Shown: piece by piece, positions 16,949 to 35,755 of the stretch
Layout of the letters: each line of letters opens with the position of its first letter
Numbering within the stretch: position 1 is the stretch's first letter
Assembly (NCBI GenBank): GCA_035294085.1
Contig: DATGLP010000008.1
Span: forward strand, 151,681 to 215,680
Direction: 5' to 3'
Length of the DNA stretch: 64,000 nucleotides
From: Acidimicrobiales bacterium
GTDB lineage: Bacteria > Actinomycetota > Acidimicrobiia > Acidimicrobiales > Bog-793
Position numbers and translations under genes: made by a program
The notes under the pieces: generated by a model
The model's database searches: none
Told to the model about the DNA's origin: nothing
The model's input: only the letters and a program-made list of their open reading frames with translations

Positions 16949-17908
16949 CTAGGAGGCTCGCGCCGGTGTGCGAGCCGAGGCGCGCGCGTGCTCGAGCACC
17001 GCGGCGAGCCCGGCCGTCAGGCTGGTGGCGGGCCGCCAGCCGAGCAGGCGTGCGGCGCGGCTCGAGTCGAGCGCGCTGGCGCGCACCTCGCCGACCCGGG
17101 CCGGTCCGTGGAGCGGGGGCGGCGCACCCCTCGCCAGCCGGGCCATCGCCAGGTAGAGCTCGTTGACCGAGGTCTCGCGGCCCGTCCCGATGTTGAAGGT
17201 CCCCTCGGCCTCGCTCGTTGCGGCTCGCACGAAGGCGTCGGCGACGTCGTCGACGTACACGAAGTCGCGCGTCTGGCCCCCGTCGCCGAAGATCGTGGAG
17301 GGGCGCCCCGCGGCGAGGTTCGCGGCGAAGATGGCGACGACGCCGGCCTCGCCGCTCGGGTCCTGGCGGGGACCGTAGACGTTGGCGAGGGCGAGGGCGG
17401 CCGAGCGCAGGCCGGCGAGGCTGCGGTAGGCGGCGAGGTAGTCGAGCAGCGCGCGCTTCGTGATCCCGTAGAAGGAGGTGGGGCGCTGCGGGTGGTCCTC
17501 GGCGACGGGCAGGCACGCCCGGTCGACGTCGCCGTAGAGGGTGCCGCCGCTCGCCGCGGCGACGACCTTGCGCACCCCCGCCCGGCGCGCGGCGTCGAGG
17601 ACGCGCACGGTGCCCAGTACGTTCACCGTCGCGTCGCGCGCGGGGTCCGCGATCGAGGCGGCGACGCTGGCTTGGGCCGCGAGGTGGAAGACGACCTCCG
17701 GTCGGCGCTGCGCGACGAAGGCGGTGAGCGCGTCCGAGCAGATGTCGATCTGCTCGAAGCGCGCCCCTGCCGCGATCGCGCCCGCGAGGTTGGCGAGCCG
17801 CCCGGTCGACAGGTCGTCGACGACGTCGACCGTGTGGCCGTCGGCCAGCAGGCGGTCGGCGAGCGTCGACCCGATGAAGCCGGCACCGCCGGTCACGAGC
17901 GTGTGCAT
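16949..17908 (-). CDS. NAD-dependent sugar-nucleotide epimerase/dehydratase
   Basis: An extended SDR of 319 residues, similar to UDP-glucose 4-epimerase. The NAD-binding motif VTGGAGFIGSTLADRL is at the N-terminus, with Asp pair VVDDLSTG, FHLAAQASV, the serine region AASGGTLYGD and the catalytic YGITK. Substrate region: NVYGPRQDPSGEAGVV and FGDGGQTRDFVYVDDVA. Last gene of the minus-strand glycan operon, 45 bases after the GH16 gene, with a GGAAGGAG SD. It presumably supplies an activated sugar for the glycosyltransferases upstream. Confidence 0.88.
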   Translation of the reverse strand: MHTLVTGGAGFIGSTLADRLLADGHTVDVVDDLSTGRLANLAGAIAAGARFEQIDICSDALTAFVAQRRPEVVFHLAAQASVAASIADPARDATVNVLGTVRVLDAARRAGVRKVVAAASGGTLYGDVDRACLPVAEDHPQRPTSFYGITKRALLDYLAAYRSLAGLRSAALALANVYGPRQDPSGEAGVVAIFAANLAAGRPSTIFGDGGQTRDFVYVDDVADAFVRAATSEAEGTFNIGTGRETSVNELYLAMARLARGAPPPLHGPARVGEVRASALDSSRAARLLGWRPATSLTAGLAAVLEHARASARTPARAS

Positions 17909-17953
17909 CTCAGTCTCCTTCCGGTCCGTCCCTGCCCGGCGCAGCCCGCAGGC

Positions 17954-18979
17954 TCACCTGCGCTGCCAGACGCGCACGTAGTCGAGCCGCAGGCTCGCCG
18001 GCCAGCGCGTCCCGACGTCGGTGCTCGGCGTGCCGAGCGTGGCGAGGTCGGCGATGAGGTACATCGGCGTCGAGACGGAGACCTCGGCCTCGAAACGGCG
18101 CACCCCGTCGACGTACCAGGTGATCGACGTCGGCTCCCAGTCGACGGCGAAGGTGTGGTAGCCGGTCGACAGGCTCGGGTCCTCGACGATGGCGTGCGGG
18201 TGCGAGCCGGGCCGGTCGTGGACCCCGAGCATCGCCTGGTCGGGGTTCGACCCCCAGACCTCGAAGAGGTCGATCTCGGGGGGGAAGGCGTGGTCGGCCG
18301 GGAGCATCCAGACCGCGGGCCACAGCCCGGTGCCGGTGGGTAGCTCGGCGCGCACCTCCACGTAGCCGTGCTCGAAGGCGAAGTGGCCGCTCGTCTGGAT
18401 GAGGCCCGACGTGAAGGGCCGGCCCGCGGCGGGCCCCGGGCGTGCCGTGAGCGAGGCGACGCCGCCGCCGACGGCCACGTTGGCCGCCTCGTACCACTCG
18501 GTCTCGGGGTTCCCCTCGTTCGTGCAGCCCCAGTCGTAGCAGGTGGACCAGCGCGCCGTGTCGAGGGCGCTCCCGCTGAACTCGTCGTCGAACACGAGGT
18601 GCCAGTCGCCGGCGAGCCCGGGCGGCCGCGCCGGCGGCGGGGCGCTCGACGGCGCGAGCTCGGCGGGCGGGATCGGCGCGTGCCGGGTCGCCTGCGTGGC
18701 GCCCGTCGCCGGGGGGGAGCGCCGGGGCGCCGGCGGCGGGCTCGCGAGCCACAGGACGCTCGCGGCCGCGAGGCCGGCGAGGGCGAGCACGGCGGCGACC
18801 CGAGCCGCCCGCGCCCGCCCGCCCCGGTCGGCCGGCCGAGGCGCCCGGGGCCGTCGCGGCGCCGGCGAGGCGAGCCGACGGCGCGTCGGCGGCGCGTCCA
18901 CCCGTGGTCGGCGCGCGGCACCGCTGGGCGCTCGCGCCTCGAGGAGGCGCGGCGCTGCGCTGGGGGCGCCGGTCCTCAC
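17954..18979 (-). CDS. Membrane-anchored glycoside hydrolase family 16
   Basis: 341 residues: a basic cytoplasmic N-terminus of about 55, one transmembrane helix (ARVAAVLALAGLAAASVLWL), a Pro/Ala/Ser linker, then a GH16 beta-jelly-roll. The catalytic motif EIDLFEVWG matches E-x-D-x-x-E (nucleophile and acid/base). Other family features: FDDEFSG, GHFAFEHGYVEVRAELP, GLWPAVWMLP and YHTFAVDWEPTSITWYVDG. GH16 enzymes cleave or transglycosylate beta-1,3/1,4-glucans and galactans, so it may trim or release the glycan. GTG start overlaps the upstream stop (GTGA). Confidence 0.9.
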   Translation of the reverse strand: MRTGAPSAAPRLLEARAPSGAARRPRVDAPPTRRRLASPAPRRPRAPRPADRGGRARAARVAAVLALAGLAAASVLWLASPPPAPRRSPPATGATQATRHAPIPPAELAPSSAPPPARPPGLAGDWHLVFDDEFSGSALDTARWSTCYDWGCTNEGNPETEWYEAANVAVGGGVASLTARPGPAAGRPFTSGLIQTSGHFAFEHGYVEVRAELPTGTGLWPAVWMLPADHAFPPEIDLFEVWGSNPDQAMLGVHDRPGSHPHAIVEDPSLSTGYHTFAVDWEPTSITWYVDGVRRFEAEVSVSTPMYLIADLATLGTPSTDVGTRWPASLRLDYVRVWQRR

Positions 18980-19350
18980 GGCGAGCTCCTCGGTCGGCGC
19001 GCGACGCGCCCGGCGACGAGGACGCCGGTCAGCCCGGCGAGGCAGGACAGCACGGCGAGCGCGCTGAAGGCGTGGCCGAGGGAGAAGCCGACGCTCACCA
19101 CGGTGGCGAGCGAGAGACTCGCCGCGACGGCGAGGACGGCCCGTTCGAGGCCGGTACCGAGCTCGACCAGGCGGACGAGGGCGTAGCCGGGGACGAGACC
19201 GACGAAGCCGAAGGTGGCGAGCGCCCGCCAGGCGACCGGCGCGTGCGCCGCCACGGCGAGCACGGCGAGCGCGGCGCACAGCGCGAGCAGCCCGTCCGCC
19301 GGTGCGACGCGCGCCGGGCGCCCGGCGGCCTCCCTGGCCGCGGGCGTCAC
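18976..19350 (-). CDS. Small membrane protein of the glycan operon
   Basis: 124 residues with three to four hydrophobic helices (LLALCAALAVLAVAA, ALATFGFVGLVPGYALV, AVLAVAASLSLATVVSVGFS, FSALAVLSCLAGLTGVL). No family recognised; the pattern FVGLVPGYALVRL recalls N-terminal pieces of some DUF1616-type or polysaccharide-synthesis membrane proteins, which is weak. Joined by GTGA overlaps to genes on both sides, so it is co-translated with the operon. Confidence 0.65.
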   Translation of the reverse strand: MTPAAREAAGRPARVAPADGLLALCAALAVLAVAAHAPVAWRALATFGFVGLVPGYALVRLVELGTGLERAVLAVAASLSLATVVSVGFSLGHAFSALAVLSCLAGLTGVLVAGRVARRPRSSP

Positions 19351-22016
19351 GGCGTGCCCCTGCTCGGGTGGTGGACGAGCTCGAGCGCGAGCACGGTCGG
19401 GGTGGACACGACGACGCGGAAGTGGCCCGAGGCGAGGACCTGCGAGCGGATGCGCGCCAGCGATCCCGGGGGCAGCAGGCCCTGCTCGCCGATCACCGCC
19501 GCGTCGGTGGCGGTGAGCAGGAGGTAGGCGTGGCGGTAGGGGCGCATCGCGCGCAGGAGGGTGCCGACGGGATCCGCGAGGAGCCGCTCGACGGCCTTCG
19601 GCCCGACCTGCGTGTACCAGTAGGTCGTGTAGTGCTCGTAGCCGTGCAGCGGCCAGGTGTCGTCGCCGACGAGGCCCGTGACGTACGAGCCGGGCGGCGC
19701 CAGCGCGTAGAAGCGGGCCGTGGCGGCCACCTCGTTCGGCGAGAAGTAGTTGACGCGCTCCTTGCCGTAGTAGGAGACGGCGAAGGCCGCGAGCAGCGCG
19801 CCGGCGACGGCGAACTTCGCGCCGTCCGCGAGGCGCGAGGCCCGCCGGCGCGCCGGGTGGAAGGCGGCGGCGCCGAGGAGGGCGAGGAAGGGGAGCGCGA
19901 ACAGGTAGACGCGAAAGACGATCTCGCCGCCGTAGCTGTTGCCGAGCAGGGCGGGCACCGGCGAGACGCACAAGAGCGCGGCCGCGAGCCAGGAGCGCCG
20001 GCGCTCGGATCGCCAGTTCCGCCAGACGCCGACGAGGGCGACGAGGCAGATCCAGGCGGTGAGCAGGCGGTCGACGCGCGAGATGAGGAGCTGGTCGGGG
20101 CTCGCGTAGGCGGCGTTGAACTGGTTGACCGACGCGTTCGAGAAGAGGTCGCCGAGGCCGGCGCTGAGCGAGGGGAAGTTGGTGGCGATGAACGTGTGCC
20201 CGGCGAGCAGGACCCAGGCGGCCGAGACCGCGAGGGCGACGGCGGGCAGCGACCGGTAGTAGAGGCGGCGGCCGAGCGCCAGGGCGGCGAGGGCCGTCAC
20301 CACCATGAACGGCGTCAGCTGGTGCGTGCAGGCGATGGCGAGCGTGCACAGGAGGACGAGGCCGTACGCGGCGCGCCGTCGGCGCCGCGCCGTCGGGTCC
20401 GCCGCGCCGTGCTCGCCGACGTCGTGCCGCCCCGGCAGGTAGCGCAGGCAGAGCGCGAGGACGACGAGGTAGAGGAAGAACGCGAAGCCCTGCGGCGAGA
20501 AGTAGTCCTGGCCGATCCAGTTGCCGAGGTAGAAGAGCCACAGCGCCGTCCAGCGCAGCCGGACGTCGCTCGTGAAGGCCCCCGAGATGAGCGCGAGCGG
20601 CCCGGCGTAGGCGAGCTCGCTGACGAAGGGGGCGAGACCGGCGTAGCCGAGCGCGGACGAGAGCCCCGAGCCGCTCGTGAGGGTGGCGTTCAAGGTGAAG
20701 AAGCCGGGCCAGTCCTGGTAGGCGACGAGCGACGGGATCGGCTGGGTGAGGTCCACGCCGTGGGTGTCGATGACGAAGCCGGTGATGGCCACGTGCTTCC
20801 AGGCCCAGGAGTAGCGCAGCGTCCCGTACAGGAGCGCCGGCGTGAGGTGGAGCACGGCGAGGAGTGCGACGAGGTGCGCCGCGAGCAGGAGCGGGTGCGC
20901 CGGTGCCCGGCGGACCCACCAGGCGAAGCCCGCCGTGAGCAGGCCGAGGCTGAGGAAGTACGCCGCGGGGAGCACGGAGACGAGGCCGAAGTCGCTCATG
21001 CGCGCGAGGTCGACGCCGTGGACGAGGACGTGGACCCACAGCGCGAGCGCCCCGGCGAGCACCGCCAGTCCGGCCACCGGCGCGAGCGAGAGCCGGCCGC
21101 GCAGGTAGCCCGCGAAGGTCGCGCCCGTCCCGGCGAGCGCCGCGACCGCGGCGAGCCCCCGGCTCGGGCGCCCGCGCGCCGCCTCGCCGAGCGAGGCCGC
21201 GACGGCGCGGGGCACGGTCGAGACCAGGTAGCTGCGCTCGTCGGCCAGGGCGCGGGAACGGCCGGCGAGGCGGACCACCTCCGCCTTGGAGCGGCCCTCC
21301 CCGTAGCAGCGGCGGAGGAAGTAGCGCCACGTCCCCCGGGCGGGCGGGACCCGGTGGTGGACGACGGCGCCCGGCTCGTAGACGAGGCGGACGCCGTTGC
21401 CCGAGCGCTGCGCGCGGATGCACAGCTCCGTCTCCTCGCAGCCGGCGCTGTTCGTCCCGTTGCGCCCGAGGCGCTCGCTGAAGCCGCCGAGCGAGACGAG
21501 CAGGTCTCGCCGGAACGACATGTTCGCGCCGACGAAGTTGCGCACCGGCCTCGTCGAGGAGGGCATCCCGGCGTGGCTGCAGCCGACGACCCAGTCGAAC
21601 GCCGGCGGGAACCAGTCGGGGCGCCTGGCCGACCACCTCGGCACGACGCGCCCGCCCGCGCCCACGACGCCGGGCTCCTCGTAGGCGGCGAGCAGACGCT
21701 CGAGCCAGCGCTCGTCGGCGGCGGCGTCGTCGTCGAGGAAGGCGACGACGTCGCCGCGGGCGCGCGCGATGCCCGTGTTGCGCCCACCCGACAGGCCGGC
21801 CGGCCCGGCGTTCTCGACGACGAGGGCGCGTGGGAACGCGAGCCGGGCCCGTTCGAGGAGCGGCGGACAGTGGTCGATGACGACGATCACCTCGGTGGGC
21901 GGCCGGGTCTGGCGCAAGGCGGAGGCGACGGCTGCGCACAGGTCGTCCCAGCGCTCCTCGGTGTACGCGCAGATCACGACCGAGACGCGCAGGCCGAGCG
22001 CCGCGAGGGTGGTCAC
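19347..22016 (-). CDS. GT2 glycosyltransferase fused to a large multi-pass membrane domain
   Basis: 889 residues. Residues 10-300 form a family 2 glycosyltransferase: SVVICAYTEERW, NAGPAGLSGGRNTGIA, the metal-binding FLDDDAAADERWL (about 94-106) and acceptor-site CEETELC. A cytosolic stretch (YFLRRCYGEGRSKAEVVRLAG) follows. From about 320 onward roughly a dozen hydrophobic helices alternate with extracytoplasmic loops (HGVDLTQPIPS, NYFSPNEVAATARFY), the layout of GT-C or polysaccharide polymerase proteins. It may extend and transfer lipid-linked sugar, or couple synthesis to polymerisation. GTG start, GTGA overlap with the flippase-kinase gene. Confidence 0.8.
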   Translation of the reverse strand: MTTLAALGLRVSVVICAYTEERWDDLCAAVASALRQTRPPTEVIVVIDHCPPLLERARLAFPRALVVENAGPAGLSGGRNTGIARARGDVVAFLDDDAAADERWLERLLAAYEEPGVVGAGGRVVPRWSARRPDWFPPAFDWVVGCSHAGMPSSTRPVRNFVGANMSFRRDLLVSLGGFSERLGRNGTNSAGCEETELCIRAQRSGNGVRLVYEPGAVVHHRVPPARGTWRYFLRRCYGEGRSKAEVVRLAGRSRALADERSYLVSTVPRAVAASLGEAARGRPSRGLAAVAALAGTGATFAGYLRGRLSLAPVAGLAVLAGALALWVHVLVHGVDLARMSDFGLVSVLPAAYFLSLGLLTAGFAWWVRRAPAHPLLLAAHLVALLAVLHLTPALLYGTLRYSWAWKHVAITGFVIDTHGVDLTQPIPSLVAYQDWPGFFTLNATLTSGSGLSSALGYAGLAPFVSELAYAGPLALISGAFTSDVRLRWTALWLFYLGNWIGQDYFSPQGFAFFLYLVVLALCLRYLPGRHDVGEHGAADPTARRRRRAAYGLVLLCTLAIACTHQLTPFMVVTALAALALGRRLYYRSLPAVALAVSAAWVLLAGHTFIATNFPSLSAGLGDLFSNASVNQFNAAYASPDQLLISRVDRLLTAWICLVALVGVWRNWRSERRRSWLAAALLCVSPVPALLGNSYGGEIVFRVYLFALPFLALLGAAAFHPARRRASRLADGAKFAVAGALLAAFAVSYYGKERVNYFSPNEVAATARFYALAPPGSYVTGLVGDDTWPLHGYEHYTTYWYTQVGPKAVERLLADPVGTLLRAMRPYRHAYLLLTATDAAVIGEQGLLPPGSLARIRSQVLASGHFRVVVSTPTVLALELVHHPSRGTP

Positions 22017-24415
22017 CGGGCCAGCACCGCCTCGAGCACCGGCTCGACGTTGGAGGCCCACCACAGGGCGTGGCGGTGGTAGCGGCGGGACTTCTGGAGG
22101 TTCCCGGCGACGTGGTTGAGCCAGGTCCACAGGACGAGCTCGCGGTGGTCGATCGGGCTCGCAGCCACCGCCGGTGCCGCCTCGCCGAGCACGGCGTCGT
22201 CGGGCCAGTCGGGCTCGGCGAGCACGCGGCGGACGAGCTCGCCGAGCTGGCAGCGGCGCGTCTCGCAGTAGAGCGTGCCGACCCACGCGAGCACGTCGAG
22301 CTCGGCGAGGCCGTGTGGGTTCGCCTGGCCCCAGTCGAGGACACCCGTCACGCGCAGCGCGTCGGGCGCGAGCAGGACGTTGCCGGGCGTGAAGTCGCCG
22401 TGGGTCCACGACAGCCGGACCACCTTCCCGCGGGCCGCGTCCCGCAGCCGGCTCCCGAGGCGCTCCAGGGCGTCGGCGTGGGCCACGGGGACGTCGCGCC
22501 TCGGATGGGTGCGCGCGAGCAGGTCGAGCTTGGGCGTGAGGATGCCGTCGAGGAGCGTGTCGTCGAGGAGCCGTGGCGCCGCGGTGGCGGCGTGGAGGCT
22601 CGCGATGGCCTGGAGCCCGGCGCGCGCGACCCTCGTGCGCAGCCACGGCGCGCCGAGGACGAGGAGCCTCGCCGAGACGCCCGGGAGCGCCGGCTGGACG
22701 ACGAAGCTCGGCTCGCCGTCCCCCTGCAACGACGGCGCCGGCAGCAGGCTCCGGAAGGCGCGCAGGCGGTCGTCGGAGCCGAGCGCCTCGAGGACGCGCT
22801 GCTCGGCGAGCAGCTCGGCGAGGGCCCGGTCGCTGCGGGGGACCTTCACCACGGCGAGCGGGACGCGCGCCGGGCTCTGCAGCAGCAGGACGGTGAGGTC
22901 GGAGGCGCTCGGCGCCACGTGCAGCTCGGCGATGCGGCGCGACGTACCGAGGCACTCGAGCGGCAGGTGCGAGACGAGCTGGGGGAGCAGCCGCGACGCG
23001 AGCCGGCGCGCCTCGCGCACCTGGCGCGGTCGGCGCAGCGGGTTGTGGAGGTCCGGGAGGGAGCGGCGCACGAGGAGGCGTGCCGCGCCGAGCCGCGCGG
23101 CGGCGACGGGCCGCGGCCTGGCGGCCCGCGCCGGCGCGGCGAACAGGACACGGCCGAAGGCGGGGAGGACGATCGCGGCGACGGCGCACTGGGCGACGAG
23201 CCAGGCGAGCCCGGCGGCCGCGATGCCGAGGTGGTCGAGGAGGGCAGCGGTGAGCCCGATCACCGAGGCGCACAGGCCGAGGTCGAGGAGGAAGACCAGC
23301 CGGGTCCGGCGCTGCACCCGCAGCGCGCCCACCGCGGTCGAGTTGACGATGAAGGGGAGGGACGAGAGCGCGAGCAGCCGCAGCGTCGTCGTCCCGGTCG
23401 CCGCGTAGGAGCGGCCGAAGAGGGAGAGGATCGCGGGCGCGCCCGCGACCACGACGGCGACGGCGGGGACGAGGAGCTTCGTGAGGTGCACGATGACGCG
23501 GCGGCACTGCGGCCCGAGCTGGCGCGCGTCGGCGGCGGTCTCGACCACGAGCGACAGGCCGATGTTGATGCTGACGAGGTAGAGGGCGTAGGCGATCACC
23601 CACGAGAGGCTGAAGGCGGCGCTCACGGCCGGGCCGGCGTGCTCGATCACGAGGAGCGGGAGTAGGAGCGTCGCGGTGAGCCAGCACAACGACGCGAGGT
23701 AGTCGTAGGGGACGTAGCGGACGAGGTCGTGGAGGCGCACGTCGCCCTCCGGGGAGCGCCGCTGCTGGCGCGGGATCGCCCGGCCGAAGAGGTAGAGGTT
23801 CGTCGGCACGACCGTGGCGAGCGACGCGAGCGTCCAGGCGACGAAGATGCCCGCACCCTTGAAGCTCGCCGCGAAGGGCAGGACGAGTCCCGCCTTGAGG
23901 AGGGAGAAGCCGGCGTTCTCCACCGGCACCCACGGCGCCCGCCGCAGGCCCGTGAGGGCCCCGTCCTCGAGGACGAAGATCGCCCACACCGCGGTGGCGA
24001 GCGTCCACCACACGACCATCAGGTGGTCGCGGCGGATGAAGTCGAGGCGCCCGGCGAGCTCGGGCACGAGGAGGGCGAACCCGAGCGCCAGCACGACGGC
24101 CACGACGACGGCGAGCGCGTAGCTCGAGACGACGAAGCGCAGGATCTTGCGGCCGGCGGTCGGGATGAAGCGCGTCAGCGCGCTCGTCAGATTGAGCTGC
24201 GCGACGCCGCCGAGGAAGGTCATCGTCGACAGCGCCGCGGCGTCGCGCCCGACGTCGGCCGCCGGGTAGCCGCGTGCCGCCAGCACCCAGAACGCCATCC
24301 CGATGGCAGACGTCGCCATCGAGCTGAGCACGAGGGCGTGCCCGTTGCGGAAGAGGGGGTCCCGGAGCTCCTCGAGGAGCGCCGGCCGCCGCAGCGCGTG
24401 GCCTGTCCGGCTCAC
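22013..24415 (-). CDS. Wzx-type flippase fused to an aminoglycoside-phosphotransferase-like kinase
   Basis: 800 residues. Residues 20-430 are a MOP-superfamily polysaccharide flippase with about 12 helices (RNGHALVLSSMATSAIGMA at the start; GGVAQLNLTSALTRFIP; FFGRSY-like LFGRSYAATGTTTLRLLAL). Residues 480-800 form an APH/choline-kinase-like domain: lysine in AVVKVPRSDRALAEL (about 525), Brenner motif WTHGDFTPGNVLLAP (671-678) and metal-binding LDWGQANPHGLAELDVL (694-). All key kinase residues appear intact. I know no characterised protein with this fusion. It could phosphorylate the exported glycan or its lipid carrier. GTG start overlaps the next gene. Confidence 0.8.
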   Translation of the reverse strand: MSRTGHALRRPALLEELRDPLFRNGHALVLSSMATSAIGMAFWVLAARGYPAADVGRDAAALSTMTFLGGVAQLNLTSALTRFIPTAGRKILRFVVSSYALAVVVAVVLALGFALLVPELAGRLDFIRRDHLMVVWWTLATAVWAIFVLEDGALTGLRRAPWVPVENAGFSLLKAGLVLPFAASFKGAGIFVAWTLASLATVVPTNLYLFGRAIPRQQRRSPEGDVRLHDLVRYVPYDYLASLCWLTATLLLPLLVIEHAGPAVSAAFSLSWVIAYALYLVSINIGLSLVVETAADARQLGPQCRRVIVHLTKLLVPAVAVVVAGAPAILSLFGRSYAATGTTTLRLLALSSLPFIVNSTAVGALRVQRRTRLVFLLDLGLCASVIGLTAALLDHLGIAAAGLAWLVAQCAVAAIVLPAFGRVLFAAPARAARPRPVAAARLGAARLLVRRSLPDLHNPLRRPRQVREARRLASRLLPQLVSHLPLECLGTSRRIAELHVAPSASDLTVLLLQSPARVPLAVVKVPRSDRALAELLAEQRVLEALGSDDRLRAFRSLLPAPSLQGDGEPSFVVQPALPGVSARLLVLGAPWLRTRVARAGLQAIASLHAATAAPRLLDDTLLDGILTPKLDLLARTHPRRDVPVAHADALERLGSRLRDAARGKVVRLSWTHGDFTPGNVLLAPDALRVTGVLDWGQANPHGLAELDVLAWVGTLYCETRRCQLGELVRRVLAEPDWPDDAVLGEAAPAVAASPIDHRELVLWTWLNHVAGNLQKSRRYHRHALWWASNVEPVLEAVLAR

Positions 24416-27174
24416 GAGCCGTCCCGGAGCCTGGCGCGAAGGGCGAGGAGGCGCGCGAGCCGCAGCGGGACGCCGCGCAGGCCGGCCTCCCGCAGCGAGA
24501 GGAGCTCGAGGAGCGCTCGTGCGGGCGGCGCGCCCGGCGCCAGTGCGCAGCGCTCGCAGCCCCCGGGTCGGTGGCCGAGGAGCCGGCGCACCGCCTCGGC
24601 GAGGCCTGCCTGGTAGGGGTCGCGGAGGACCTGGGCACCCGCCTCGGCGAGCGCCGGCGCAGCGTTGGCCGGGGCGAGGGCGAGGCTGGCGAGCGCGAGC
24701 ATGCCTGCGTCGGCCTCGCTGTCGCCGACGGCGAGGGCGAGGCGCGGCTCGGCATCGACACCGCCGGCGCCGAGCAGCGCGCGCAGTGCGACCGCCTTGT
24801 CGCAGCCGCGCGCGACGAAGTCGGTCTGCTCCTCGCCGTAGACGGGGACCACCTCGTCGCGGACGCCGGCCGCGTCGACGAGGTGCGCGACGAGTGCCGG
24901 CTCGAGCCCGACGCGCCGGCCGCCGGGGCCGCGGCGGTAGGCGCGCACCGAGCGCCGGTAGCTCGCGTCGATCACGACGTCGGGGCGCGCGTCGCAGGTC
25001 TCGCGCAGAGCGTCGAGCGCCGCGCGCTCGGGCGGGTGGAGCAGCTCGCGCACCGAGGCGTCGCGCCCGTCGTGGACGACCCCGCCGTACTCGCCGACGC
25101 CGCCGGGCAGTCCCCAGGCGACACAGCGGTCGACGACCTCGTCGAGGCTGCGCCCGGTGGCGAGGACGACCCGGTAGCCGTGGGCGCGAAGGGCGCGCAG
25201 CGCCATCGCACCGAGGTGGGTCGTGGCCGGGAAGCCGAGCACGGTCGTCTCGAGGACGCCGTCGAGGTCAAGCGCGCACCACGGCCCCTCGGGCGGCGGA
25301 TCGAGGTCGGCGAGGTAGCGCTCGTGCACGAAGCGCTGGAAGGCGCGCGCCTGCCGGCGAGCCGTCTCGTCCGGGTCGAGCTCAGCGAGGCGTCGCAGGT
25401 TCCACAGGTGGACGAGCTGGAAGACGAGCCAGCGCTCGGGCTCGACGCGCCGGCCGCTCGCCGCCTCGAAGGCGGTGCGCAGCGCAGCGGGGAAGGCCGG
25501 GTCGCCGGAGGCGCTCGCGCAGGCCGCGAGGTCCGCGGCGACGTCGTAGCTCGCGAGGTCGAGGTGGCCGCCGGACCCCTCGGCGAAGTCCTCGCGTACG
25601 GCGGGGCGGCGCCAGTCCGTGAGGAACCAGCCGCCGCGCGCGGCCGGTCCGTCGGTCACGGCCGGCACGCTCGCCTCCACGAGCCGTCTCGCCACCGGCT
25701 CGCTCACGAGCGGGCGCATCGCGAGCTCGAGGGGACCGAGCGGACGTCCGACGAGGCGTGCTGCCACCTCCCAGACGGGCTGACGTCCGGCGAGGAGCGC
25801 GGCCCGGTCTCGCGCGACGCCGAGTGCTCGCTCGCGCTGCGCGGCGTGCGCGGCGACGAGCGGCGCCACCTCGGCGGTCAGGCGCTCGCCGTCGAGTCGT
25901 CGGGCCTCCGGCAGCTGACGGTGGTAGAGGACGCCGTCGACGAGACCGATGACGGGCGCGAAGAGCGACGGCGCGGCCGTGGCGAGGGCCACGGCGCGCC
26001 TGCCGAAGTAGCCGAGGCCGACGCCTTGCGCCACGACCGGCTCGATGCGCACGACCGAGGCGTCTCGCCAGCGGACGCGAAAGGCGCGCCGCAGGTGTCC
26101 GCGCGCGGGCCGAGTGGCCGGACCCAGCGCCTCGATCTCCTCGACGACCGCCGCGGGTCCGAGCAGGCGAGCGAGCGAGCGCGCCACCTCCTCGGGGCGG
26201 AACTGGCGATGGCACGCCCACTCGTCGAAGGGGAGCACGAGCGCCGGGATCCCCCCGAGGGCGTCGGGAAGGCGCGCCTCGGCATCGAAGGATGCCAGGG
26301 CGAGCACGAGCTGGGACGGCTGCACCCGGGCCTCGCAGCGCAGGCCGTCGACGACGGCAGCGAGGGAGCGGCCGCTCTGCGGCGGGTCGTCCACGACGAG
26401 GACCGAGCCGCCGCGCGCGGCGCAGCGGCACAGGGTGGCCCGCGCCGAGGGCGCCACCGGCCAGCCAGGCCGAGCCGAGGCGACGCCGACCTCGCGAAAG
26501 CCGAGGCGCGCGAGGCCGGCGGCGAGGAGCGGGGCGAGGTACGAGCCCGAGGTGCGCACCCCGACGACGGTGATCGGGCGCGAGCGGTCGGGCCAGCGTG
26601 CCGCGTAGCGCGTGGCGAGCTCGACGAGGTCCGCCGGTCGCTGGTCGAAGCTGTGGAAGCACGACGGTGGCCGCAGGACCTCGCCGGCGTACCGGGCGCC
26701 GAGCGGCGCGAGCGCCTCGACGAGCGCGCTGCCGTGCTCCTCGAGGCGCGCGGCGAGCATCGGGGTCGCCCCGTCCCCGCCGCCGACGACGAGGCCGGCG
26801 AGCTCGGCGAGGAGCCGCTCGAGACCTGCGAGGGCACTGGCTTCGACGCGTCGCTCGCGACGGCCGACGGCGGAGGCAGCGCGCTCGGCCAGCCGCGCGC
26901 CACGCGCCGCGGCCGCGGCGGTCCGGCCCTCGCGCTCGCGGGCGTAGGCCGCGACGCGCCGCAGGAGGCGCCGTGCTGGCGGGCAGGCGTCGGCGAGGAC
27001 CTGGTGGACGCCGGCGGCGAGGAGGTAGGCGTCGAGCCAGTTCCGCGCCGTGAGCTCGTCACCGAGCATCGAGACGAGCGCTTCCAGGTCGCCCAGCAGG
27101 TCGAGGGGCGCGGCGCGCGTGCCGAGGGGGGCACCCTGCTCGCCCGGCGCGACGTCGCGTACGACCGTGGTCAT
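24412..27174 (-). CDS. Phosphoribosyltransferase / kinase-like / HAD phosphatase multidomain protein
   Basis: 920 residues. 1-150: helical, Ala/Arg-rich. 160-340: type I phosphoribosyltransferase-like, with ITVVGVRTSGSYLAPLL and a PRPP-loop VLVVDDPPQSGRSL (about 258-271). 355-600: a region recalling aminoglycoside-phosphotransferase/kinase folds (VAQGVGLGYFGRRA, WFLTDWRRPAVREDF, LDLASYDVAADLA), possibly degenerate. 630-860: HAD phosphatase, with DLDGVLETTVLG (636-), LATGRS and GDSEADAGML (817-). The last 50 residues have CERC. Combined PRPP chemistry and phosphatase suggest a phosphoribose-based modification. Single ATG with GTGA/ATGA overlaps on both sides. Confidence 0.7.
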   Translation of the reverse strand: MTTVVRDVAPGEQGAPLGTRAAPLDLLGDLEALVSMLGDELTARNWLDAYLLAAGVHQVLADACPPARRLLRRVAAYAREREGRTAAAAARGARLAERAASAVGRRERRVEASALAGLERLLAELAGLVVGGGDGATPMLAARLEEHGSALVEALAPLGARYAGEVLRPPSCFHSFDQRPADLVELATRYAARWPDRSRPITVVGVRTSGSYLAPLLAAGLARLGFREVGVASARPGWPVAPSARATLCRCAARGGSVLVVDDPPQSGRSLAAVVDGLRCEARVQPSQLVLALASFDAEARLPDALGGIPALVLPFDEWACHRQFRPEEVARSLARLLGPAAVVEEIEALGPATRPARGHLRRAFRVRWRDASVVRIEPVVAQGVGLGYFGRRAVALATAAPSLFAPVIGLVDGVLYHRQLPEARRLDGERLTAEVAPLVAAHAAQRERALGVARDRAALLAGRQPVWEVAARLVGRPLGPLELAMRPLVSEPVARRLVEASVPAVTDGPAARGGWFLTDWRRPAVREDFAEGSGGHLDLASYDVAADLAACASASGDPAFPAALRTAFEAASGRRVEPERWLVFQLVHLWNLRRLAELDPDETARRQARAFQRFVHERYLADLDPPPEGPWCALDLDGVLETTVLGFPATTHLGAMALRALRAHGYRVVLATGRSLDEVVDRCVAWGLPGGVGEYGGVVHDGRDASVRELLHPPERAALDALRETCDARPDVVIDASYRRSVRAYRRGPGGRRVGLEPALVAHLVDAAGVRDEVVPVYGEEQTDFVARGCDKAVALRALLGAGGVDAEPRLALAVGDSEADAGMLALASLALAPANAAPALAEAGAQVLRDPYQAGLAEAVRRLLGHRPGGCERCALAPGAPPARALLELLSLREAGLRGVPLRLARLLALRARLRDGS

Positions 27175-28574
27175 CGGGTGTCGCCGGCCCGGCGGAGGCG
27201 GTGCCGGCTGCGCAGGTAGGCAGCGGGCCCGGCGAGGATGCCGCGCCGTTCGAGGCGCGACAGTGCCGCCGGCCATGCCGGCGCGCCGGGTACGAGACGA
27301 GCGAGGTCGCCCTCGGCGATCGCAGCGGCACCGGAGTGCCTGAACGTGTGGACGAGGGCCTGGGGGAGGCGGCCGGCGAGCGCCGCCGCGACGCGAGCGT
27401 CCTTGAGCGCGACGCTCGTCACGTAGGCGCCGAGTCCGACGCCGTAGCCGTAGGCCTGGCGGGCGAGCGCCGCCGGCTCGCGGTGGTGACGGTGCCACGC
27501 GATCGCGGCGGGCTGGTACGCGAGCGCGGCGCCCGTCTGGAGCACGCTGAAGAGGGCGGCGAGGTCGTCACCCCCCATCGCCGGGGTGCCGGTCCCGAGC
27601 GCCGGGTCGAACCCGCCGATGTCCCGCAGCAGCCGGGCGTCGAACGCCATGCTCGCGCCCGAGCCGAGGCGCCCTGCGGAGAAGGGGAAGAGCGGATCGG
27701 CGGGGCGGCGGGTGGCCCGGTCGACGACGAAGGGGGCGAAGCCCTTGGCGAAGCGCCCATGGGCCTCGAGGAGCCACTGCGTGGGTGTCTCGAGCTCTGC
27801 AGGAAGGATGAGGCCGGTCGCCGCCCCGACGGCGGGGTCCGTGACGAACGGTTCGACGAGGGCGCTGAGCCAGCTGCGGTCGACGACGACGTCGTCGTCG
27901 GTGAACGCGACGACGTCGCCCTGCGCCTCGCTAAGCGCTCGATTGTGGGCGGCGCCGAGCCCGCGGCGGCGCTCGCGCACGTAGCGGGCGGTGGCGACGC
28001 CCGCGAAGCGACGCTCGCACGCGACTCTCGTGTCGTCGCTCTCGGGGTCGTTGTCGACCACGATGATCTCGAACTCCGGGTAGTCGAGCGCGAGCAGGGA
28101 GTCGAGGCACCGCTCGAGCTGGCGCGGCCGCTCGCGTGTGGCCACGACCACCGAGGCGGGCCGCGCCCGGGCGAGGGCCTCGCGCCGGGCTGCGAGGCAC
28201 CGGGGACGTGGGCACGGCGCGGGTCGCCAGAGCTCGAGGGGACGGACCGGGACGAGGCCGTCGGCGCGCAGGTGCGCGTCGATGGCCGGACCGAGCGCCG
28301 AGGAGACCGCCTCGCTCCAGGAGCGAGGAGGCTCGGGCGCGGCCAGGTCGAGTGCCACGACGCCGAGCGGATGGCCGTGGAGGCGGACGAGGACGAGGGC
28401 CGTTCGTGCCTGGCGCGCCACACCGTCGCCGGCGCTCGATCGCCCGGGGAGGAGGCTGCGCAGGCCGGCCTCCAGGTGGACCTCGAGGACGGCGAGGGGG
28501 AAGCAGGTCGTGGGCGATCCGACGGCAGCGCCTCGCTCCTCACGAGCGCGTGGCGCGAGGGCACTCGTCGCCAT
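27171..28574 (-). CDS. Family 2 glycosyltransferase with N-terminal extension
   Basis: 467 residues. The first 130 form an unassigned domain (LEVHLEAGLRSLLPG...HGHPLGVVALDLAAPEP). A GT2 domain begins at about 140: SVVVATRERPRQLERCLDSLL, IIVVDNDPESDDTR, LGAAHNRALSEAQGDVVAFTDDD (metal site DDD) and the GGDDLAALFSVL acceptor motif. No clear transmembrane helices, so it is probably a soluble or peripheral enzyme. It starts ATG in a TGATG junction with the upstream GT2 gene. Confidence 0.85.
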   Translation of the reverse strand: MATSALAPRAREERGAAVGSPTTCFPLAVLEVHLEAGLRSLLPGRSSAGDGVARQARTALVLVRLHGHPLGVVALDLAAPEPPRSWSEAVSSALGPAIDAHLRADGLVPVRPLELWRPAPCPRPRCLAARREALARARPASVVVATRERPRQLERCLDSLLALDYPEFEIIVVDNDPESDDTRVACERRFAGVATARYVRERRRGLGAAHNRALSEAQGDVVAFTDDDVVVDRSWLSALVEPFVTDPAVGAATGLILPAELETPTQWLLEAHGRFAKGFAPFVVDRATRRPADPLFPFSAGRLGSGASMAFDARLLRDIGGFDPALGTGTPAMGGDDLAALFSVLQTGAALAYQPAAIAWHRHHREPAALARQAYGYGVGLGAYVTSVALKDARVAAALAGRLPQALVHTFRHSGAAAIAEGDLARLVPGAPAWPAALSRLERRGILAGPAAYLRSRHRLRRAGDTR

Positions 28575-29461
28575 CACTCGGGGAGCGCCAGCGGGTCGTC
28601 GCCGCTCGCGTCCGCACGCGCGCGCCTCGCCTCGACGCGCTGCGCGATGAGCGTCCGCAGGACTCGCTGGCCGTCCCGGAAGCTGTGCAGGCTGGAGCGA
28701 CCTCCTCGTCTCGGCAGCTCGAGGCTCGGGATCTCGGCGATGCGCAGGCCGGCGAGGAAGGCCCGCACCGTGAGCTCGGTCTCGATCTCGAACCCGGTCG
28801 ACTCGAGGGCGAGGTGCTCGAGGAACCGCCGGCGGAAGGCGAAGAACCCGTAGCACAGGTCGGTGAAGCGAGACCCGTAGAGGAGGTTGGCGACCGCGAG
28901 CAGGCCGCGGTTGCCGATCCGCCTGAGGGGCGTGATGTCGAGGGAGCCGCCGCCGCCCACGAAGCGCGAGCCCTTCACGAAGTCGTAGCCGCGCTCGAGG
29001 AAGTAGAGCAGGTGGGGGATCTCCTCCGGAGACATGCTCCCGTCCGCGTCCATCGCGACGATGACCTCACCCCGAGCGGCGTGGAACCCGGCGCGCAGCG
29101 CGCACCCCTTGCCGCGGGCGGGTTCGGAGATGATGCGGATGTCGGGGCGGCAGGCGCGCGCCATCAGGCGGGTGGCGTCGCGGGATCGGCCGTCGACGAG
29201 GAGGATCTCGTCGACGCAGGCCGGCACGCGCTCGAGTACGTGCGCGAGGTTGCGCGCCTCGTTCTTCGCCGGGATGACGAGGCTGACGGCCGTCGCGTCT
29301 GCTCGTTCACCGGACCGGTCTGCGTGCTCGGGCGCGTCGGTGTCGGGCGGCAGAGGTGCGATCGCTGGGAAGCGGTCGACGCGCCCGTCGACGGCCGCCC
29401 GGCCAGCGTCGCGCGCGAGCGCCTTCTCGTGCGCTCCGTCGGCGAATGCTTGTGATGACAC
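28574..29461 (-). CDS. Dolichol-phosphate-mannose-synthase-like GT2, first gene of the glycan operon
   Basis: 295 residues. GT2 core after a 60-residue disordered N-terminus: SLVIPAKNEARNLAHVLERVP, LVDGRSRDATRLMA, RGKGCALRAGFHAARGEVIVAMDADGSMSPEEI (D-x-D metal site) and VKGSRFVGGGGS. This is the pattern of polyprenyl-phosphate sugar synthases, which would make a lipid-linked sugar donor. Start GTG at 29461 with AAGGAGGGGG about 10 bases upstream. It opens an eight-gene run reading to 16949. Confidence 0.85.
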   Translation of the reverse strand: MSSQAFADGAHEKALARDAGRAAVDGRVDRFPAIAPLPPDTDAPEHADRSGERADATAVSLVIPAKNEARNLAHVLERVPACVDEILLVDGRSRDATRLMARACRPDIRIISEPARGKGCALRAGFHAARGEVIVAMDADGSMSPEEIPHLLYFLERGYDFVKGSRFVGGGGSLDITPLRRIGNRGLLAVANLLYGSRFTDLCYGFFAFRRRFLEHLALESTGFEIETELTVRAFLAGLRIAEIPSLELPRRGGRSSLHSFRDGQRVLRTLIAQRVEARRARADASGDDPLALPE

Positions 29462-29592: not shown

Positions 29593-30246
29593 CTACTTCG
29601 GGCGCAGACCGGCGTCGAGCGCCACGGAGACCGCCGCGAGGTTGGAGTGCACGTTCAGCTTCAGCTGGATGTTCCGGGTGTGCGTCCGCACGGTGTTCAC
29701 CGCGAGGTGGAGCCGGTCGGCGATCTCCTGGTGCCCGAGGCCCTCGACGAGGAGCTCGAGGATCTGCAGCTCGCGCTCGGTGAGCGACGCGAGCAGCGAG
29801 TGCGGACGGGTGGTCGTCGAGCGCGACCGGAGCTCGGCGAAGAGGCTGGCGATGAGCGGCGGCGAGATCCACATCTCGCCGCGTCCGGCCCAGCGCACCG
29901 CCGAGACGAGATCCTGCACCGGCGCGACCTTCAAGACGCACGCGGACGCGCCCATCCGCATCGCCGTCGCCATCGCCTCGGCGTCGTCGCGGCAGGTGAG
30001 CAGGACCACGGCGGGCGCGTGCTGGAGCGCCTTGAGGCGCGGGATGAGGTTCGTCGCGTCCGTGTCGTCGAGGTCAGCGTCGAGGACGACGACCTCTGGA
30101 TGGCTCGTTGCGACGAGGTCCGGCACCTGGCTGAGCGACGACGCCGTGCCGACGACCCGGATGTCCGGCTCGTGGGCGAGGCAGGCGGTGAGCCCATCGC
30201 GCAGGACCGGATGGGTGTCGACGATCGCGACGGTCGTTTCGTGCAC
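29593..30246 (-). CDS. NarL/LuxR-family response regulator
   Basis: 217 residues: receiver domain (VAIVDTHPVLRDG; phospho-acceptor Asp in VVVLDADLDD; conserved Lys in CVLKVAP) and a LuxR helix-turn-helix (LTERELQILELLVEGLGHQEIADRLHLAVNTVRTHTRNI). No cognate histidine kinase is adjacent. It lies 131 bases upstream of and in the same direction as the glycan operon, with the secreted Ig/TIG gene divergent on its other side, so it may control both. GTG start at 30246; the SD is weak. Confidence 0.88.
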   Translation of the reverse strand: MHETTVAIVDTHPVLRDGLTACLAHEPDIRVVGTASSLSQVPDLVATSHPEVVVLDADLDDTDATNLIPRLKALQHAPAVVLLTCRDDAEAMATAMRMGASACVLKVAPVQDLVSAVRWAGRGEMWISPPLIASLFAELRSRSTTTRPHSLLASLTERELQILELLVEGLGHQEIADRLHLAVNTVRTHTRNIQLKLNVHSNLAAVSVALDAGLRPK

Positions 30247-30550
30247 GACGGCAGTGTCGCGGCAGGCTCCTAGTCCGCCTACCGCTACGCGGGGGATCTT
30301 CCTACGTCGCACGGTGGAGGCACGGCCAGCGCGCCCGCGCCGGGCAGATGGAGATCGGCCGCTACTTGCAAGGAAGGAGCGTGGATCGGCGCGTCCCCGT
30401 CCGGAGTGGCGCGGCGGCTCGGAACCTCCGCGGGGATGCGTAGTCGCCTCACCCATCCGCCCGATGCGGCGCGAGCGCCTCGTCGCGACCATGCCCCCAG
30501 AGGTTCTTCGTGGGACGCAAGGCCGAAGGCCGCGGCTGAGGGAGGCTCGC
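30247..30550. other. Divergent regulatory region, regulator / secreted protein
   Basis: A 304-base gap between two divergent genes. I see no clear -35/-10 pair. AAGGAAGGAG at 30370-30379 precedes GTG at 30381, which opens a 20-codon reading frame ending at 30443. It might be a leader peptide but has no other support. Confidence 0.3.
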
Positions 30551-33625: not shown

Positions 33626-35071
33626 TCAGGTCGCGGCGCTCGCTATCACGGTATCGGGGAGCTCAACGGTGACCACGGCGCCGCCGGCAGCGGTGTTCGC
33701 AGCCTCCGCCCGACCGCCCTGTGCGGCGGCGATGGCCGACACGATGGCGAGCCCGAGGCCGGTGCCCCCGGTTGAACGGCCGCGGGCGACATCGGACCGG
33801 GCGAAGCGCTCGAAGGCCCGAGGCAGGAACGTCGGCGAGAAGCCGGGACCTTCGTCGGCGACGCTGACCACGAGTGTCGCGCCGCGCGCGCGGGCAGCAA
33901 TGGTCACCGTCGATGACGCGGGCGCGTAGCGCAGGGCGTTCTCGAGGAGGTTGTCGAGTACTTGACGCAGGCGGCCAGGGTCGACAAGCGCCTCAAGTCC
34001 TGTGTCCGTGTCGATGCCGAGCCTCACCTGGAGCCGCGCGGCTTCGCTCTCCCACGCCGCCGCGCACCGTTCCAGCAGCGGATTGATCGCGACCTTCTCG
34101 GGCAGCAAGGTGAGTTGGCCACTGTCTCGCTGAGCCAGCACCAGCAGGTCCTCGGCGAGGCGGGCGACATGGTCTGCCTCACCGAGCGCACTCTGCACGG
34201 CGGCCGCGAGCTCGGCGCGCGAGCGTCCCGATCGAGCGGCGAGCTCAAGTTCCGCGCGCAGGACGGCAAGCGGCGTACGCAGCTCGTGACCGGCGTCCGC
34301 GACGAAGGTCCGTTCCCTCGTCAGCGTGTCCGAGAGTCGAGCGAGAGACTCGGAGAGGCGGGCGAGGAGATGATTCAGGGTCTTGCCGAGGCGCTCCAGC
34401 TCGTCGTGCGTCGGCGGCACCTCGATCCCTGCGTCGCGTGGGGGGTCGGCGGTTGCGAGCGCCTCGACCTCCCGGCGCATCGCCTCGACCGGTGCCAACG
34501 CGGCACGGGCGAGCAGGTAGGCAGCGAGGCCCGCAAGGGACACGCCGACTACGCCGGCGATGGCGAGTGCCCGGTCGACGTTGTGGAGCGTCTCGTCGAT
34601 TGTCGCCAGCGAGGCGCCGATGACGACCAGCCACCCTCGGCGGCCTCCGACGGGGACGACGAGCAGCCGGAGCCGGCCACGTTCATGGGGCCGGGCGACG
34701 GTGAGGCGCAGCCGCCCGGTCGTGGCGTCCCGTGTCTCTGCGGGAGTGAGGAGCGCAGCAGCACCTGCCGCCTGATTCGCCTCGACGACCCGCCCACCGG
34801 GGGCGAGCACCTGAAGGAGGTACTCGCTCGGCACCGCTGAGCTGGGTGCCGCCGTCGTGCCCACCGGGACGCCACCGGCGTCCTGCAGGTTCTCCTGGCC
34901 TCCTGGTCCTGGCGTGGACTGGAGTGCCTGGGTGGCCTGAGCGGCCAGATTCGCATCGAGGGTCTCGACGAGACTCGAGGCGAGCAGGCTCGAGAAGAGG
35001 AAGCTCCCGAGCGCGAACACCGCCGAGGTCGCGACGAGGGCGACGAGGGTCAGGCGGAGGCGGACCGACAC
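33626..35071 (-). CDS. Sensor histidine kinase (OmpR-pair type)
   Basis: 481 residues: an N-terminal helix (LTLVALVATSAVFALGSFL), an extracytoplasmic sensor of about 130 residues, a second helix (ALAIAGVVGVSLAGLAAYLLA), HAMP, the phospho-acceptor FVADAGHELRTPLAVL, and an HATPase with N box DNLLENALRYAP, G1 VADEGPGFS and G2 GGTGLGLAIV. It begins with GTG three bases after the response regulator stop. The input is unknown. Codon use is less extreme in third-position G+C than in the dcw genes. Confidence 0.93.
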   Translation of the reverse strand: MSVRLRLTLVALVATSAVFALGSFLFSSLLASSLVETLDANLAAQATQALQSTPGPGGQENLQDAGGVPVGTTAAPSSAVPSEYLLQVLAPGGRVVEANQAAGAAALLTPAETRDATTGRLRLTVARPHERGRLRLLVVPVGGRRGWLVVIGASLATIDETLHNVDRALAIAGVVGVSLAGLAAYLLARAALAPVEAMRREVEALATADPPRDAGIEVPPTHDELERLGKTLNHLLARLSESLARLSDTLTRERTFVADAGHELRTPLAVLRAELELAARSGRSRAELAAAVQSALGEADHVARLAEDLLVLAQRDSGQLTLLPEKVAINPLLERCAAAWESEAARLQVRLGIDTDTGLEALVDPGRLRQVLDNLLENALRYAPASSTVTIAARARGATLVVSVADEGPGFSPTFLPRAFERFARSDVARGRSTGGTGLGLAIVSAIAAAQGGRAEAANTAAGGAVVTVELPDTVIASAAT

Positions 35072-35074
35072 GGC

Positions 35075-35755
<681 letters not shown>

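Follow-up and report, generated by a model that had tools for sequence, protein, structure and literature searches.

The question raised by this locus is what kind of glycan its genes assemble, and what is contributed by G3, a protein that looks like an undescribed enzyme placing ribose on a surface sugar chain. Eight genes run on the minus strand from 29461 down to 16949 among the open reading frames (ORFs) of a 64-kb window (the whole stretch of DNA that was analyzed). The preliminary description had reported them as a tight array, and all of the ORFs are present: the six junctions from G1 to G7 are all 4-nt ATGA or GTGA overlaps, including those of G2 with both G1 and G3, and a gap of 45 nt separates G7 from G8. 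A strong AAGGAGG ribosome-binding site lies ahead of G1; a promoter scan gave no signal above chance. The host is a high-GC actinobacterium. The operon and two neighboring genes are as follows.

G1, 28574-29461, minus strand: GT2, polyprenyl-phosphate sugar synthase-like (PF00535, 92.6 bits; nearest curated model AglJ, under cut-off)
G2, 27171-28577, minus strand: cytoplasmic GT2 (PF00535, 89.9 bits at 142-255)
G3, 24412-27174, minus strand: four-domain PRTase/kinase-fold/HAD protein (AlphaFold model and conserved motifs)
G4, 22013-24415, minus strand: flippase-APH kinase fusion (PF01943 and PF01636 in aligned members)
G5, 19347-22016, minus strand: GT2 (AglG-like)-GT-C fusion (PF00535, 85.5 bits; GT-C half by structure match)
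G6, 18976-19350, minus strand: small 4-TM protein, positional partner of the GT-C gene (4 hydrophobic segments)
G7, 17954-18979, minus strand: membrane-anchored GH16 endo-glycanase (PF00722, 66.2 bits)
G8, 16949-17908, minus strand: extended SDR NDP-sugar epimerase/dehydratase (PF01370, 201 bits)
NarL/LuxR-type response regulator, 29593-30246, minus strand: 131 bp upstream of G1 (PF00072 and PF00196)
S_IPT, 30491-33076, plus strand: divergent secreted neighbor protein with two near-identical C-terminal repeats

The domains named earlier for G1 and G2 (GT2), G3 (PRTase and HAD), G4 (flippase), G7 (anchored GH16), and G8 (epimerase) were all upheld. G1 scored 123 bits against the AglJ model, short of the equivalog cut-off of 325. 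G2 has a conserved N-terminal extension of ∼135 aa with no assigned function. G7 has one TM segment (residues 61 to 79) and the GH16 catalytic motif ExDxxE, present as EIDLFE at residue 235, and G8 has the motifs GGAGFIG and YGITK. Neither a Wzy_C polymerase nor a UbiA domain was found among the eight operon proteins.

G4 consists of a multi-TM lipid-glycan flippase (residues ∼1 to 430) and an APH-family kinase (∼490 to 800). The Wzx-type flippase family PF01943 matched 5 of 13 aligned members, the window copy scoring 24.2 bits, slightly below the cut-off of 28.2. The idea of a flippase-kinase fusion is upheld by PF01636 (APH), found in 12 of the 13 members, and by an intact kinase motif (K, HGD, N, DW, with H672, D674, N679, and D694 invariant), although the window copy itself has no Pfam match for the kinase. 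Flippase and kinase form one fused protein in 12 loci and are separate genes in 9. The G4 kinase is the only one in the operon with an intact catalytic motif.

G5 had been described as a GT2, and its N-terminal half (∼1 to 305) does match PF00535, but a GT-C membrane glycosyltransferase half (∼310 to 889) had been overlooked. The GT2 half scored 228 bits against the AglG model, below the equivalog cut-off of 440. The GT-C half (residues 370 to 883) resembled yeast STT3 (8agc_A; Z 22.3 over 456 aa, rmsd 4.8) and AglB (3waj; Z 21.1 over 444 aa), an assignment that depends on a structure model with a pTM of 0.67. The WWD motif, also as WWE or WWN, was absent from all 12 relatives checked; Pfam STT3 gave no match, nor did a GT-C profile run against PDB sequences. 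The GT-C half is thus predicted to have an oligosaccharyltransferase-like fold but has no WWD motif. At 12 of 22 loci, the next gene after the GT-C gene is a small one with 3 to 4 TM segments (G6 here), and in most cases the two share a 4-nt overlap.

In the AlphaFold model of G3 (pLDDT 91.3), a helical N-domain is followed by a type-I-like PRTase (∼165 to 336), a choline-kinase fold (∼340 to 625), a HAD-IIB domain (629 to 873), and a C-terminal CxxC. In the PRTase, GxRTSGxYLxP and D262 are invariant and D263, P264, and G268 nearly so. The PRPP loop (DDPPxSG plus GxRTSG) and the HAD motifs (DxD, K, and GDxxxD; D636/D638, K793, D818, and D822) are each at least 95% conserved among 42 relatives. 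A PRPP-binding transferase domain and a HAD phosphatase thus share one polypeptide, as in gPRT-PRP enzymes. Pfam Pribosyltran (PF00156) matched 23 of the 42 relatives (best 2.2e-6), which points to type I for the predicted PRTase. According to a 2022 structure paper, gPRT reportedly has a divergent fold of its own. Type-I PRTases act mostly on nitrogen bases, not glycans. The HAD domain matched 1wr8 (Z 22.4 over 221 aa) as well as Cof, SPP, and T6PP (HAD-IIB), and by motifs and modeled fold it is predicted to be a complete HAD-IIB phosphatase. Its cap is of the alpha/beta C2 type, not alpha-helical as in PRP domains. The middle domain had been called kinase-like. The fold bears this out (choline kinase, Foldseek E 1.8e-4), but a phosphorylating activity does not follow, since there is no conserved HxD motif and just D508, D544, and D548 are conserved. 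G3 has no clear membrane segment, its single hydrophobic stretch sitting within a folded domain. Two other ideas about G3 were dropped. Its middle domain showed no profile-profile similarity to the G4 kinase (probability 0.1%), and therefore the two are not recent duplicates; a relation to Ter-type PRTase_2/TRSP proteins found no backing in Pfam, where none of 42 members gave such a match with E as high as 0.1.

Homologs of G3 occur at a minimum of 50 loci in 84,980 genomes, a lower bound because the collection scan requires an exact peptide. Neighborhoods were counted over a 10-kb range at 30 non-redundant loci with flanks. The conserved co-occurrence that the preliminary description had proposed looking for was found: the GT2s, flippase, APH kinase, and GT-C have homologs near G3 at 17 to 22 of the 30 loci (G2, 22; flippase, 21; kinase, 20; G5 GT2, 20; GT-C, 19; G1, 17), a polysaccharide deacetylase at 19, and GH16 at 15. 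This conserved neighborhood also supports a dedicated glycan operon, as had been suggested, one that covers lipid loading and flipping, transfer on the outside, and trimming. The same genes occur together, in shuffled arrangements, in dozens of genomes of Actinomycetota and Chloroflexota, and the remainder of the window, a small control, holds no second copy of any operon gene; chance co-occurrence is therefore excluded. Culturable bearers include Streptomyces, Streptacidiphilus, Amycolatopsis, and Rhodococcus. Genes that are fused in the window often have separate homologs elsewhere.

The full set of eight genes is not the conserved unit. One locus (L016) carries all eight families, and three from Chloroflexi/Anaerolineales MAGs (L018, L022, and L024) carry the same set, shuffled; however, a G8-type epimerase is near G3 in only 4 of the 30 loci, the deacetylase belongs to the core, and G3 is optional. 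The recurring core is made up of G1, G2, G4, and G5 (in many cases with the domains split), together with GH16 and a polysaccharide deacetylase, the last of which is missing from the window. G3 is an optional module of this conserved system. The machinery is present without G3 at L100 and L101, and G3 adjoins a Wzy_C ligase, a flippase, and GNATs at L050, a GT4 and a flippase at L037, and a GT4 at L036, and is found in two copies with GT2 and GH44 at L055, in each case without the eight-gene set. Some G3 loci (for example, L041 and L047) have no recognized glycan gene within 10 kb. GT-C was present in 4 of 7 genomes with G3 compared to 16 of 291 without it (Fisher p 4.6e-4). When the pairwise distances of G3 were set against those of each partner, the correlation was 0.74 to 0.89, a mirror-tree signal confounded by common descent. 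G3 is rare: it matched in 2 of 396 genomes of a phylum-wide sample, one of them HAD-only, and in plasmids there was no match.

The LuxR regulator reported next door is real, with no sign of conserved membership; it is a possible regulator of the operon. The C-terminal repeat of S_IPT spans 270 bp with 99% matches. A relative adjoins the flippase-kinase gene at L012 (446 bits), and none was present at 48 loci of the neighborhood comparison. An association of S_IPT with the glycan operon is possible but unproven.

The operon is very probably a lipid-carrier-dependent line for glycan assembly and export. Sequence and structure show the domain content, the fusions, the intact motifs, and the recurring neighborhood; the substrates, ribosylation, order of steps, and final acceptor are inferred, as follows. 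G1 probably puts the first sugar on polyprenyl phosphate, and G2 and the GT2 half of G5 would lengthen the lipid-linked glycan, with G8 providing an epimerized NDP-sugar. The G3 PRTase would move 5-phosphoribose from PRPP onto the growing glycan, and the HAD domain would then strip the 5-phosphate to leave ribose, both steps taking place on one polypeptide; the kinase-fold domain may be a degenerate scaffold or bind the acceptor. The flippase half of G4 would carry the lipid-linked glycan across the membrane, while the kinase half of G4 may phosphorylate some group on the carrier, the sugar, or the glycan. With the aid of G6, the GT-C half of G5 would hand the glycan to an outside acceptor, and G7 would trim the exported product. 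A ribosylated glycan, already suggested in the preliminary description, is favored because the PRPP-binding loop and every HAD motif are intact in G3, which adjoins glycan genes even in other locus types. Against it stand the nitrogen-base habit of type-I PRTases, a cap type unlike that of known phosphoribose phosphatases, and the G3 loci with no recognized glycan gene nearby. O-ribosylation by BtrL/BtrP in butirosin is a precedent. The proposal as a whole, with G3 ribosylation and every assigned step, comes close to an even call.

If G3 instead acted on the lipid carrier, its PRTase and then its HAD domain would make polyprenyl-phosphate-ribose, the flippase would export it, and the G5 GT-C would add the pentofuranose outside, as in three-component systems. 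The parts list fits (a PRPP enzyme with phosphatase, a MOP-type flippase, a GT-C, and an epimerase; PMC11127046), but G3 lacks a UbiA domain and a clear membrane segment, and the flippase/GT-C pair occurs without G3 and must therefore have another donor, making this reading quite improbable. The loci without G3 speak for an ordinary exopolysaccharide locus in which the GT-C is the polymerase and G3 a nucleotide/sugar-metabolism enzyme that supplies or regulates precursors, with no ribosylation of the product. The Actinoplanes imp and wps-1 clusters combine similar parts (PMC12691653, PMC13390465). However, G3 travels with several kinds of glycan loci, and a PRPP site and sugar-phosphatase fold in one protein suit glycan ribosylation better than precursor supply; we consider this explanation unlikely.

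Archaeal Agl-type protein glycosylation, with AglJ/AglG-like GT2s, a flippase, and an oligosaccharyltransferase-like GT-C acting on secreted proteins such as S_IPT, would account for the best curated models of G1 (AglJ) and the G5 GT2 (AglG), for the STT3/AglB fold, and for a secreted protein family adjoining the cluster both here and at L012. It is nevertheless very improbable: those scores are far under the cut-offs, the WWD motif is found in 0 of 12 relatives with no Pfam STT3 match, S_IPT occurs at only one other locus, and GH16 and the deacetylase suit a polysaccharide better.

Ribosylation of the glycan by G3 gives a sharply testable enzyme hypothesis in which a single protein converts PRPP and glycan to ribosyl-glycan. 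It also draws attention to an export system found across two bacterial phyla, in which a flippase-kinase accompanies a GT-C of an orphan family. The G3 reaction may be a third route by which bacterial glycans acquire ribofuranose. Its full form is tentative and somewhat doubtful: a third, undescribed route in which a soluble type-I-like PRTase, a degenerate kinase fold, and a C2-capped HAD ribosylate lipid-linked glycans from PRPP, within a widespread uncharacterized actinobacterial and chloroflexal export system based on a flippase-kinase and on a GT-C that has the STT3 fold but belongs to a new family. If true, bacterial glycobiology would gain both a new donor route and a new transferase family, and the ribose-containing glycans of Gram-positive-type envelopes would have a gene marker.

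As to known systems, Wzx/Wzy capsule or exopolysaccharide loci share the Wzx-type flippase, and the operon lacks their Wzy_C polymerase. That the gene set matches no characterized locus, as previously supposed, agrees with literature searches, which gave only the Actinoplanes clusters, and these differ. In Actinoplanes missouriensis, the partners of a flippase are an Alg6/8-like GT-C plus a 5-TM protein in imp, and GH26 plus a kinase-like protein in wps-1 (PMC12691653, PMC13390465). The imp cluster resembles the operon in its actinobacterial flippase, GT-C (ImpE, compared with the G5 GT-C by description only), and small TM protein (ImpD), and wps-1 in its kinase-like WpsI and GH26. However, imp has three GT4 enzymes and GH5, and neither cluster has a named PRTase-HAD or AglJ-like GT2. 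Haloarchaeal Agl N-glycosylation (AglJ, AglG, AglR, and AglB) shares the nearest curated GT2 models, a lipid-linked glycan, a flippase, and an STT3-fold GT-C, whereas the operon scores under the equivalog cut-offs, lacks WWDYG, and has GH16, PRTase, and kinase, which like the deacetylase are foreign to Agl.

The three-component pentofuranose systems (Citrobacter; PPPRS, MATE flippase, and GT136 GT-C) likewise have a PRPP enzyme with phosphatase, a flippase, a GT-C, and an optional epimerase, the likeness in GT-C being one of fold (G5 370 to 883). In contrast, the operon lacks a UbiA-type synthase and adds GT2 enzymes and a kinase, and its GT-C has neither a Pfam family nor a sequence relative in the PDB. 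The closest parallel to the proposed reaction comes from the O antigens of Klebsiella, where two-step PRPP-dependent ribosylation by PRT and HAD proteins is established (PMC11127046, PMC11231755). In PRP domains, the known phosphoribose phosphatases, the cap is alpha-helical (PMC11127046). G3 differs from the gPRT-PRP ribofuranosyltransferases of Klebsiella O4/O7 in its type-I-like PRTase, additional kinase-fold domain, HAD-IIB with C2 alpha/beta cap, host, and locus, but like them it unites a PRPP transferase and a HAD phosphatase in one protein, lies in glycan loci, and would follow the same two-step logic.

The eight genes of the cluster (G1 to G8 in transcription order) were found where the preliminary description had placed them:

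28574-29461, minus strand: G1, GT2
27171-28577, minus strand: G2, GT2
24412-27174, minus strand: G3, PRTase/kinase-fold/HAD protein
22013-24415, minus strand: G4, flippase-kinase
19347-22016, minus strand: G5, GT2 plus GT-C
18976-19350, minus strand: G6, small TM protein
17954-18979, minus strand: G7, GH16
16949-17908, minus strand: G8, epimerase

An AAGGAGG sequence stands upstream of G1, the six consecutive junctions from G1 to G7 are 4-nt ATGA/GTGA overlaps (taking GTG at 28577 as the G2 start), and a 45-nt gap separates G7 from G8. The cluster is a textbook operon with translational coupling. The rest of the 64-kb window contained no second copy of any cluster gene. Nearby lie an adjacent pair of histidine kinase-like and response regulator-like genes (33626-35755, minus strand) and a secreted protein (30491-33076, plus strand) with a C-terminal pair of almost identical IPT-like repeats (32565-33056; 270-bp unit, 99% matches), a relative of which adjoins the flippase-kinase gene in L012 (8776-11214), a locus from another genome.

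Scanning of 84,980 genomes yielded 50 G3 loci, mostly from Actinomycetota, Chloroflexota, and Dormibacterota. Thirty non-redundant loci had flanks of 7 kb or longer on each side; in these, the neighbors of G3 were G2 (22 loci), flippase (21), kinase (20), the GT2 of G5 (20), GT-C (19), polysaccharide deacetylase (19; for example, L018:12706-13527), G1 (17), GH16 (15), GNAT genes of the Acetyltransf_6 family (11), and epimerase (4). The window operon has no deacetylase; a different sugar may be involved here, or the gene may reside at another site in the genome. In seven loci (L019:10152-11183 and six others), a gene for a secreted phosphoesterase of the PF04185 family adjoins G3. A small gene with 3 to 4 TM segments comes after the GT-C gene in 12 of 22 loci, in most cases overlapping it by 4 nt, an arrangement shared by G6. 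The fusions, previously considered unusual, are present here, but flippase and kinase are fused in 12 loci and separate in 9, and GT2 and GT-C are fused in 4 loci and separate in 16. Thus, the proteins fused here also co-occur as products of separate genes. The distances for G3 correlated with those for its partners at 0.74 to 0.89, values that shared descent can also produce.

The AlphaFold model of G3 was confident (pLDDT 91.3, pTM 0.92). Residues ∼165 to 336 form a type-I-like PRTase (PF00156 found in 23 of 42 relatives), the middle domain resembles choline kinases in fold (Foldseek E 1.8e-4), and residues 629 to 873 are a HAD-IIB phosphatase (structural match 1wr8, Z 22.4). Across the 42 relatives, GxRTSGxYLxP and D262 were essentially invariant, D263, P264, and G268 were at least 95% conserved, and all HAD motifs were retained, while the kinase HxD motif was not conserved in the middle domain. 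On these motifs, G3 is likely both an active PRPP enzyme and an active phosphatase, and its kinase-fold domain is probably not a normal kinase. Variants include two separate genes in an Ignavibacteria MAG (L063:9641-12312), two oppositely oriented copies flanking GT2 genes (L055), and a HAD-only relative (G408, L112:9402-10655) with a conserved C-terminal CxxC and no PRTase, near an acyltransferase-3-like gene.

G4 joins a multi-TM flippase to an APH-family kinase; Pfam detected the kinase in 12 of 13 aligned members, and H672, D674, N679, and D694 were invariant. For G5, the preliminary description was too narrow, having overlooked the GT-C second half, for which neither a Pfam family nor a sequence relative in the PDB was found. 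In the G5 model (pLDDT 80.7, pTM 0.67), this half superimposes on the GT-C fold of oligosaccharyltransferases (yeast STT3, Z 22.3, 456 residues; archaeal AglB, Z 21.1, 444 residues). However, all 12 GT-C relatives lack the WWD motif of true oligosaccharyltransferases and 11 carry GQDYF in its stead; we therefore rejected that assignment and call the modeled domain a GT-C of an unnamed family. The GT2 enzymes are G1, G2, and G5 residues 1 to 305; the best curated models, AglJ for G1 and AglG for the G5 GT2, scored far under equivalog cutoffs. G2 begins with 135 residues that are conserved in relatives and match no family. G7 is a GH16 with one TM anchor and an EIDLFE motif, and G8 is an extended SDR.

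G3 is a module rather than the system core. Among 298 genomes of the order, G3 occurred in 7, GT-C in 20, and both in 4 (P = 4.6e-4), and two loci (L100 and L101) have G1, the G5 GT2, G2, deacetylase, GH16, flippase, kinase, and GT-C with G3 absent. Away from this system, G3 is often still within a glycan locus: beside a Wzy_C ligase, flippase, and acyltransferases (L050), GT4 and flippase (L037), GT4 (L036), or GT2 and GH44 (L055).

That G3 moves from one kind of glycan locus to another is the strongest reason to think that it acts on the glycan itself; alternatively, G3 might load the lipid carrier or only supply precursors. In the inferred mechanism, the GT2 enzymes would build a lipid-linked glycan, G3 would ribosylate it, the flippase would export it with phosphorylation by the attached kinase, and GT-C would transfer the exported glycan, trimmed by GH16. 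The product of the system might instead be glycosylated proteins.

No published description of this gene set was found in a search of mostly open-access literature. In the nearest experimentally studied actinobacterial clusters found, Actinoplanes imp and wps-1, a flippase is accompanied by either a GT-C plus a small TM protein or a kinase-like protein plus GH26; however, imp employs GT4 enzymes, and a PRTase-HAD is reported for neither (PMC12691653, PMC13390465). Known bacterial ribofuranose routes are UbiA-based three-component systems and the cytoplasmic gPRT-PRP enzymes, dual-domain ribofuranosyltransferases of Klebsiella O antigens (PMC11127046, PMC11231755). The latter share the logic of G3, a PRPP step followed by dephosphorylation by a fused HAD, whereas G3 differs in parts, having another cap type, a type-I-like PRTase, and an extra domain.
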